A program made the position numbers and the translations under genes. Of a DNA stretch of 64,000 bases, positions 34,449-56,529 are shown one piece after another (within the stretch, counting starts at the first letter, position 1; each line of letters opens with the position of its first letter). Below the pieces are notes generated by a model. That model was not told the origin of the DNA and searched no databases. It saw nothing but the letters and a program-made list of their open reading frames with translations. Source of the stretch: Nitrosospira multiformis. GTDB taxonomy: Bacteria > Pseudomonadota > Gammaproteobacteria > Burkholderiales > Nitrosomonadaceae. The stretch spans positions 310,001-374,000 of the forward strand of contig NZ_FOHI01000002.1 in the NCBI RefSeq assembly GCF_900111585.1, read 5' to 3'.

Positions 34449-34475
34449 AAAAAGGCGGGTTCGTTCCGCCTTTTT
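34449..34475 (+). terminator. Terminator after ftsH
   Basis: AAAAAGGCGG and CCGCCTTTTT pair around a 7-base loop, with the T-run forming part of the stem, 33 bases past the ftsH stop. Confidence 0.9.
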
Positions 34476-34574
34476 CATCCATCTTTTTTGTCCTGTCTTT
34501 TTCGTCCCATCTTTTTCATACCGCCTTTTTCCGGTTCATAGAAAAGAAAATTACTCCGCAATGGGTGAGTCTCG

Positions 34575-53303: not shown

Positions 53304-54515
53304 GTGACGATACCAATTTCAGAACAAGTCGAAATCATCAAGCGTGGTTGCAGTGAGCTTTTGCTGGAAGACGAACTGGAGCAGAAGCTTGCCCTGAATC
53401 GTCCACTCAGAATCAAGGCTGGATTCGATCCTACAGCACCTGACTTGCATCTGGGTCATACCGTTCTGCTGAATAAAATGCGCCATTTACAGGATTTAGG
53501 GCATCACGCCCTATTCCTGATTGGCGACTTCACAGGCATGATCGGCGATCCCAGCGGCAAGAATACCACGCGCCCCCCACTTACCCGTGAGCAGGTAGCC
53601 GAGAACGCGAAATCCTATCAGGACCAGGTGTTCCGCATACTCAAACCTGAGCAGACCGAGGTGGTGTTCAACTCCGCATGGATGGATAAGCTGAATGCCG
53701 CTGATCTGATCAAACTGGCTGCCACTCATACAGTCGCGCGTATGCTGGAGCGGGACGATTTTGGCAAGCGCTACCAGAGCAACAAGCCCATTGCCATTCA
53801 CGAATTTTTATACCCGTTGATTCAAGGCTATGACTCGGTCGCGCTCCACGCAGATATCGAACTGGGAGGCACTGACCAGAAATTCAATTTGCTGATGGGA
53901 CGGGAGTTGCAGAAACACTTCGGGCAAGCGTCGCAATGCGTCATCACAATGCCGCTTCTCGAAGGACTGGACGGCGTCAATAAAATGTCCAAGTCTGCCG
54001 GCAACTACATCGGAATCACCGAGAGTCCGGGGAACATGTTCGGCAAATTGATGTCTATTTCCGATGAATTGATGTGGCGGTATATTGAGTTATTGTCGTT
54101 CGAGCCGCTGCGCGTTGTTCGTCAGTGGCAGCAGGATGTAGGGAATGGACGCAATCCTCGCGACATCAAGGTCCTGTTTGCCCAGGAGATCGTTACCCGC
54201 TTTCATAGCAGGCAGGATGCCGAGGCCGCTCTCGCAGATTTTGAATCACGCTTCAGGCGGGGAGGTATCCCGGATGATCTGCCGGAAAACATACTGCAGG
54301 CTGGAAAAGAGGGATTGCCGATAGCGCAGTTGCTCAAACAGACCGGACTCACTGCCAGCACCACCGAAGCCTTGCGCATGATCGAGCAAGGGGGTGTAAA
54401 ATTGAATGGCGAAAAGGTGAGCGACAAAACTTTCCGGCTGCCTTGTGGTCAAACGGTGGTAGTGCAGGTGGGCAAGCGGAAGTTTGCCAGAGTAAGAATC
54501 TCCGAAGAAAAATAA
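53304..54515 (+). CDS. tyrS: Tyrosyl-tRNA synthetase
   Basis: A 403-residue class I synthetase charging tRNA-Tyr. Signatures: the HIGH-type LHLGHTV in [29 protein letters not shown], and KMSKS in [14 protein letters not shown]. An S4 RNA-binding domain occupies about residues 340-403. This is the TyrRZ type. The start is GTG at 53304. The final 45 codons and the following promoter are repeated immediately downstream (54570-54767). Confidence 0.96.
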
Positions 54516-54569
54516 AAAAGTTATCAAAAACCTTGACCGGGTATCTGGCGTCTGTATAATGCCGGCTTT
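54375..54569 (+). repeat. Tandem repeat unit 1: tyrS tail plus rrn promoter
   Basis: This 195-base unit comprises the last 46 or so codons of tyrS and the A/T-rich promoter region to CCGGCTTTCGC. It is repeated directly in 54570-54767 with about 15 substitutions and one inserted C by eye. Confidence 0.92.
54533..54560 (+). promoter_or_regulatory. Upstream rrn promoter (P-distal)
   Basis: TTGACC (54533-54538) and TATAAT (54555-54560) with a 16-base spacer, preceded by an UP-element-like A/T run (AAAAATAAAAAAGTTATCA). It is within repeat unit 1, so its transcript would cross the duplicated tyrS tail. Confidence 0.85.
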
Positions 54570-54767
54570 CGCGTGATCGAGCAAGGTGGTGTAAAATCGA
54601 ATGGCGAGAAAGTAAGCGACAAAACTTTTAAGCTGCCTTGTGGTCAGATGGTGATAGTGCAGGTAGGCAAGCGGAAGTTTGCCAGAGTAAGAATCTCCGA
54701 AGAAAAATAAAAAAGTTATCAAAAACCCTTGACCGGGCATCTGGCGTCTGTATAATGCCGCCTTCGC
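54570..54767 (+). repeat. Tandem repeat unit 2: duplicated tyrS tail and rrn promoter
   Basis: Second copy of the unit at 54375. The tyrS-like frame stays open from GTG 54573 ([17 protein letters not shown] ... RISEEK, 45 codons) to a TAA at the matching place; four residues differ. The last part (GGCAAGCGG to TTATCAAAAA, about 60 bases, including the UP element) is identical in both. It has no ribosome binding site of its own that I can see and is treated as a gene fragment. Confidence 0.92.
54729..54756 (+). promoter_or_regulatory. Proximal rrn promoter
   Basis: TTGACC (54729-54734) and TATAAT (54751-54756), 16-base spacer, with the same A/T-rich upstream element. It is the copy nearest 16S and very probably the main rRNA promoter. 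Confidence 0.9.
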
Positions 54768-54769
54768 TA

Positions 54770-54817
54770 GCTAACATTAGTAACAAAGTTTGTTAGCCAG
54801 CATCGCTCTTTAAAAAT
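54770..54817 (+). promoter_or_regulatory. rrn leader antitermination boxB-boxA
   Basis: GCTAAC (54770-54775) and GTTAGC (54792-54797) form a boxB-like hairpin. GCTCTTTAAAAAT (54805-54817) matches boxA. Together they are the site where Nus factors assemble on the nascent rRNA. The leader continues to 54990 with a 10-bp hairpin CTGTTTCGCC/GGCGAAACAG (about 54858-54882). Confidence 0.85.
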
Positions 54818-54820
54818 TTA

Positions 54821-54846
54821 CAGCCGATAGGTGTGGGCACTTGAAC
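54821..54846 (+). other. 5' strand of the 16S processing stem
   Basis: CAGCCGATAGGTGTGGGCAC and the next bases are nearly complementary to 56541-56567 beyond the 16S 3' end. Such stems bracket pre-16S rRNA and are cut by RNase III. Confidence 0.8.
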
Positions 54847-54990
54847 GGGACATACGGCTGTTTCGCCTTTCAGGCGAAACAGTCAGTTCCAAGAATCGAA
54901 GTGCTCGCACAACGTACCAAGATTCTGATCATCCCGATCGCTCGGGAGAAACAGAATCAAATAACGTCAAGCGAGAGTTTTACCAGTATT

Positions 54991-56529
<1,539 letters not shown>

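Follow-up and report, generated by a model that had tools for sequence, protein, structure and literature searches.

Tandem promoters in front of rRNA operons are well known, and partial tandem gene duplications that form at microhomology and are changed by gene conversion represent a general class. In the accessible part of the literature on enterobacterial rrn operons, those of E. coli are described as bearing tandem P1-P2 promoters in series before one operon (PMC5179076). For mycobacteria, the available passages of another study report two tandem promoters of rrnA in M. tuberculosis and five in a further Mycobacterium species, place rrnB behind tyrS with a promoter said to be not yet duplicated, and consider, for Mycobacterium kumamotonense, that tandem rrn promoters are unequally used and possibly occluded (PMC10218544). 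Among the matches listed in the literature searched by genus name, no paper on a Nitrosospira rrn promoter was found. The locus analyzed here, located in a 64-kb window (the whole stretch of DNA under analysis) from Nitrosospira multiformis, shows two promoter-like elements in series on the same strand before one rrn operon, with a copy of the tyrS 3' end ahead of each (Table 1).

By TRF, the tandem repeat spans 54369-54764 with a period of 195, 2.0 copies and 91% matches, and its score of 673 is the highest of the six TRF rows for the window. A second repeat search returned 162 nt at 91% identity with a spacing of 195. The copies are oriented head-to-tail, above chance by the TRF score, and each unit consists of the last 45 tyrS codons plus stop, an A/T-rich stretch and the sequence TTGACC-N16-TATAAT. 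Hence, the two adjacent units of about 195 bases with tyrS tail and promoter described in the first-pass annotation are corroborated, as is its estimate of a dozen or so changes in the coding half, the copied tail differing from copy 1 at 13 positions, 8 of them synonymous and 5 not. Elsewhere in the window, at 34466-34531, a short tandem repeat of 14/28-base units (CCGTCTTTTTCATC-like) gives TRF scores of 62 and 81.

Table 1. Features of the tyrS-rrn junction, given as positions in the window.
Feature	Position	Strand	Basis
tyrS, working gene, 403 aa, GTG start in ORF call	53304..54515	+	ORF call; adjoins rrn in 23/23 genus genomes
First copy of the repeated coding part (last 45 tyrS codons + stop)	54378-54515	+	ORF call
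Unit 1: tyrS 3' end, A/T-rich stretch and P1, ending at the duplication join	54378..54572	+	TRF period 195, alignment
Identical 60-base block, one copy in each unit	54471..54530 = 54666..54725	+	Alignment
Putative promoter P1, TTGACC-N16-TATAAT, 17 bases past the tyrS stop codon	54533..54560	+	Consensus scan
Duplication join, GGCTTTCGC/G in G000	54564..54573	+	Alignment; microhomology with tyrS GCCTTGCGC at 54369-54377
Unit 2: copied tyrS tail, A/T-rich stretch, putative promoter P2	54573..54767	+	TRF, repeat search, alignment
Second copy of the tyrS 3' end (45 codons + stop), probable passenger	54573..54710	+	ORF call, alignment
Putative promoter P2, TTGACC-N16-TATAAT, copy adjoining the rrn leader	54729..54756	+	Consensus scan
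rrn leader, strong predicted structure	54757..54990	+	Folding versus shuffles
16S rRNA, first gene of the only rrn operon found	54991..56526	+	rRNA search

P1 and P2 each match the promoter consensus at 11 of 12 positions, in agreement with the two tandem rrn promoters of the first-pass annotation, and precede the only 16S gene found. In total, the scan gave four promoter-like sites compared to 0.8 (sd 0.9) in shuffles, the two further sites being weaker 9/12 matches, one per unit. Terminator-like sites were not found within 53900-55000 (0 versus 1.2 in shuffles), leaving the interval between both promoters free of such a site. The leader is predicted to fold strongly (z -6.56, with 0 of 200 shuffles folding as well) and contains at 54805-54819 the sequence GCTCTTTAAAAATTT, which we take to be boxA-like. 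The predicted fold includes a long hairpin around TTTCGCC...GGCGAAA, and a leader of pre-rRNA would be expected to look like this. The operon follows directly behind tyrS in the order 16S-tRNA-Ile-tRNA-Ala-23S-5S. One 16S match was obtained in 21 of the 23 genus genomes, including the source genome, where it has to be considered that most assemblies are drafts in which an identical second operon could be collapsed. The two genomes without a match are drafts with contigs ending inside the 16S gene, and the single-contig genomes G001, G003 and G012 also show one match. Since the search in these ammonia oxidizers yielded a single rrn operon, ribosome supply should depend on its promoter. P1 and P2 would act as serial sigma-70 promoters of this operon, with P1 transcripts carrying about 195 extra leader bases. 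Judged from their sequences, both promoters are probably active, and we think that P1 is used and adds to rRNA output, while selection for promoter dosage is possible.

For tracing the distribution of the duplication, the genus set comprised 23 genomes, i.e., 22 relatives and the source genome of the window (G000). The tyrS gene adjoins 16S in all of them. Two units, and accordingly two intact promoters between tyrS and 16S, are present in four genomes, namely G000, G004 (presumably ATCC 25196), G005 (N. multiformis Nl18) and G007 (N. multiformis Nl12). The other 19 possess one promoter, thus representing the single-copy state in relatives, and every spacer is 16 bases long. Of the genomes with a single unit, G008, a MAG under the name N. 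multiformis, is the closest. A profile search did not reveal a second tyrS tail in 15 of the 19 single-promoter genomes. A self-match scan covering 22 of the 23 genomes (G010 being without an exact mark) and 25 named loci (8 of them without a tyrS end near the mark) gave matches in G000, G004, G005, G007 and G018 as well as in loci L061, L063 and L070, which correspond to G005, G018 and G007, respectively. In Nitrosovibrio sp. Nv17 (G019, locus L050), tyrS ends with a TGA that forms part of the -35 hexamer (TTGACC) of the single rrn promoter, the coding sequence thus running into the promoter.

The first-pass annotation had proposed comparing the junction in Nitrosospira and Nitrosomonas. This was feasible within Nitrosospira, resulting in the 4 of 23 genomes given above, but not in genus g3, presumably Nitrosomonas, because a long distance separates tyrS from the rrn leader in the two genomes having both on one contig among the matches listed (G060 and G078). 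In genera g2 and g4, several genomes among the matches listed keep tyrS and the leader adjacent. Six sister-genus loci were tried (L105-L107 and L113-L115), and in the three with a readable tyrS end, L105, L107 and L114, no second tail was found by profile.

Across about 12.7 kb of upstream genes, the duplicated genomes are 2.9-6.6% apart. Hence, calling the duplication recent was only partly right, as it is already common to four genomes that far apart. In a tree of the 12.7-kb upstream genes (9 genomes), single-unit G008 is placed beside G007 inside the duplicated set (88/93), and a topology uniting all genomes with the duplication is not rejected (p-AU 0.13). The tree from the tyrS body, upstream flank and leader (16 of the 23 genomes) unites these four in one group (80/72), while in the tyrS-body tree of all 23 genomes the order within this group is unresolved. 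G008 may thus have lost the duplication or, as a sister, never have possessed it.

At the duplication join, G004, G005 and G007 show the spelling GCCTTTCGC versus GGCTTTCGC in G000. The join is TATAATGCCGCCTTTCGC/ATGATCGAG in G004 and G005, while G007 and G000 have GTGATCGAG after the join and G000 bears one further change (GGCTTTCGC). The tyrS source is GCCTTGCGC/ATGATCGAG, with 8 of 9 bases matching across the join in three genomes. This tyrS spelling, GCCTTGCGC, matching GCCTTTCGC at 8 of 9 positions, is present in the four duplicated genomes and in 0 of the 19 others, where the corresponding codons match GCCTTTCGC at 5 to 7 of 9 positions. The better microhomology is thus found only where the duplication occurs, in line with illegitimate recombination at this site, although the GCCTTGCGC spelling could instead be a later change. 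In the four duplicated genomes and G008, the -35 hexamer begins 16-18 bases past the tyrS stop, and the tyrS tail would have been copied along because the rrn promoter sits right behind this codon. As the probable route of formation, illegitimate recombination between tyrS GCCTTGCGC and the promoter start region GCCTTTCGC would have created a 195-bp tandem duplication doubling the rrn promoter in an ancestor of the four Nitrosospira genomes.

The likeness of the two copies was analyzed by a site-by-site comparison of both units from all four genomes, column 208 (the unit end) being left out of the test. The 5' halves differ by copy in all four genomes, and columns separating the copies in at least one genome pair number 13 within columns 1-95 and 3 within columns 96-205. 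Conversely, columns agreeing within a genome and differing between genomes are absent from 1-95, while four (99, 157, 158 and 185) are found in 96-205. This contrast between 5' and 3' parts gives a Fisher p of 0.007, and 41 of 2000 label shuffles are as good when the split point is left free. From the private changes, 0.015 parallel identical changes would be expected in the 3' part, compared to three substitutions observed; if the rate were five times higher, three or more would arise with a probability of 0.006. Hence, the within-genome sharing characteristic of concerted evolution is found at four columns, all in the 3' half, a small number made up of three substitutions and one indel column (157) in an A-run. 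As the 3' half bears genome-specific changes common to both copies, homogenization between the copies is suggested, albeit from few sites. After the duplication, the 5' halves of the units would have diverged by copy, while recombination between copies, by conversion or unequal exchange, may have kept the 3' halves with tyrS end, A/T-rich stretch and promoter alike.

These results also bear on the stretch of about 60 identical bases through the UP element, which the first-pass annotation took as a sign of promoter selection. The block is indeed exactly 60 bases long. However, the tyrS coding sequence with its stop accounts for 45 of them, leaving just 15 in the A/T-rich stretch. For this reason, the block alone is no proof of promoter selection, and since it also lies in the half that looks homogenized by its within-genome sharing, selection is not needed for explaining the identity. 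A further sign of homogenization is TyrS residue 398 (codon 54495-54497, AGA). G000 and G005 (L036) have Arg there, compared to Thr in 18 of the remaining 21 genus genomes and Ile, Val and Ala in one each. AGA is also present at this site in the second tail of every duplicated genome, as read in G004 at the DNA level because copy 2 is frameshifted there. We read the Arg as a probable copying from the dead tail into the working tyrS, with independent mutation or recombination between strains as possible alternatives.

Four of the single-promoter genomes deserve separate consideration. In G011, G012, G014 and G018, the single promoter is located 228-325 bases past the tyrS stop, compared to -4 to 40 in the other 15. 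By profile, the gap contains a clear decayed tyrS tail in G018 (E 8e-13) and G014 (2e-9) and a weak one in G012 (0.009), while the match in G011 is not significant (0.2), though it aligns with the other remnants. G018 is the only one of the four with a self match, extending over 148 columns at 65% with an offset of 194. An intact first promoter was not found in any of them. As for a decayed one, none was detected in G018, G011 and G012 (223, 454 and 466 of 500 shuffles being as good, respectively), and the match in G014 is marginal (8 of 500). The remnants in L045 (G014), L042 (G011), L043 (G012) and L049 (G018) share GGCGACGGTCACCT just before the promoter region, a motif apparently less decayed than the remaining sequence.

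The decayed tails may derive from the event seen in the duplicated genomes or from a second one. The offset of 194 in G018 resembles the 195 of the window repeat and counts for one shared event, which is also favored by the tyrS-body tree of all 23 genomes grouping G011, G012, G014 and G018 with the N. multiformis group (82/71). The 16-genome local tree does not show this grouping and does not reject it (p-AU 0.42). In G018, the tyrS likeness seems to extend about 25 bases further upstream than the join in the window (equalled by 42 of 1000 shuffles), which weakly hints at a second event. This extension is absent in G011, G012 and G014 (180, 332 and 841 of 1000 shuffles), and the duplicated genomes as control gave values not very different, namely 397 (G000), 72 (G004), 185 (G005) and 157 (G007) of 1000. 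In either case, such duplications can lack a lasting second promoter.

Considering all this, a duplication at microhomology giving serial promoters P1 and P2 for one rrn operon, followed by recombination between the copies, is the account that we favor with moderate confidence. The main competitor is a neutral leftover, where a duplication arising by chance is tolerated and drifts, P1 contributes hardly anything, if at all, to rRNA output and owes its good sequence to copying from P2 and limited time. The four genomes with one promoter behind a decayed extra tyrS tail speak for this, as does the loss of frame in the copy-2 coding part of one genome. Moreover, the P1 hexamers are identical in all four duplicated genomes, but their conservation (0 of 12 positions variable versus 4 of 16 in the spacer) is indistinguishable from chance (p about 0.09, hand calculation). 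However, both promoters are intact with 16-base spacing in each of four genomes as distant as stated above, and we regard the neutral scenario as clearly the less likely one, though by no means negligible. A job of P1 differing from that of P2, by separate regulation, a longer leader RNA or P1 acting as an occluder of P2, appears improbable. The start regions of G000 do differ slightly (GCCGGC versus GCCGCC, and one C fewer before the -35 of P1), and the available text on M. kumamotonense discusses unequal use and possible occlusion (PMC10218544), but both differences are specific to G000, the P1 start region in G004, G005 and G007 reading GCCGCC as in P2.

The second tyrS tail probably does nothing and looks like a passenger. 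Retention of the tail for a small protein, or as a template for repairing tyrS, would agree with its 45 codons staying open in three of the four duplicated genomes and with the tyrS end of G000 and G005 matching copy 2. This is nevertheless highly improbable, as a 1-base deletion in copy 2 of G004 breaks the frame and creates internal stops, the second copies of all four genomes have a T to C change in common (Leu to Ser where the frame is open), and a ribosome-binding site for the second tail was not seen by eye. The frameshift rules out a protein role, in accordance with the first-pass view that the duplication is not kept for protein. Still less can be said for an assembly artefact having produced the repeat, which is practically ruled out because the duplication is present in four genomes and the differences between its two copies are particular to each of them, and in G004 it resides on a 3.18 Mb contig.

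Beyond the favored account, it is conceivable, though rather speculative, that single-operon nitrifiers tune rRNA capacity by recurrent duplication of the promoter and not of the operon, that the tyrS junction is a hotspot duplicated more than once, and that recombination between units both maintains the additional promoter and overwrites the terminal part of the essential tyrS with sequence from its dead copy. In any case, a doubled promoter in four genomes that is absent from close relatives constitutes a natural experiment, which could show whether growth rate or the recovery from starvation is governed by the number of promoters. At the same locus, the possible recombination of a gene fragment with the terminal part of an essential gene can be traced.

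Like E. coli rrn operons as described in the part of the literature available, the locus has two promoters in series before one rrn operon (PMC5179076). Unlike in E. coli, the Nitrosospira promoters are evident copies, 196 bases apart and with a fragment of the upstream gene between them. To our knowledge, the P1-P2 pair of E. coli is not known to consist of duplicates. With duplications formed at microhomology in general, the locus shares the join at short homology, the passenger gene fragment and the mosaic similarity of the copies, while its cargo, the promoter of an rRNA operon, sets it apart. The closest parallel that we found is the mycobacterial one, where, according to the available passages, an rrn operon also lies behind tyrS, rrn operons per genome are few, and promoter number is considered a means of raising rRNA synthesis (PMC10218544). 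Nitrosospira, however, belongs to an unrelated phylum and duplicates the tyrS-linked promoter itself, together with a gene tail. Overall, the doubled promoter departs only modestly from the widespread arrangement of tandem rRNA promoters.
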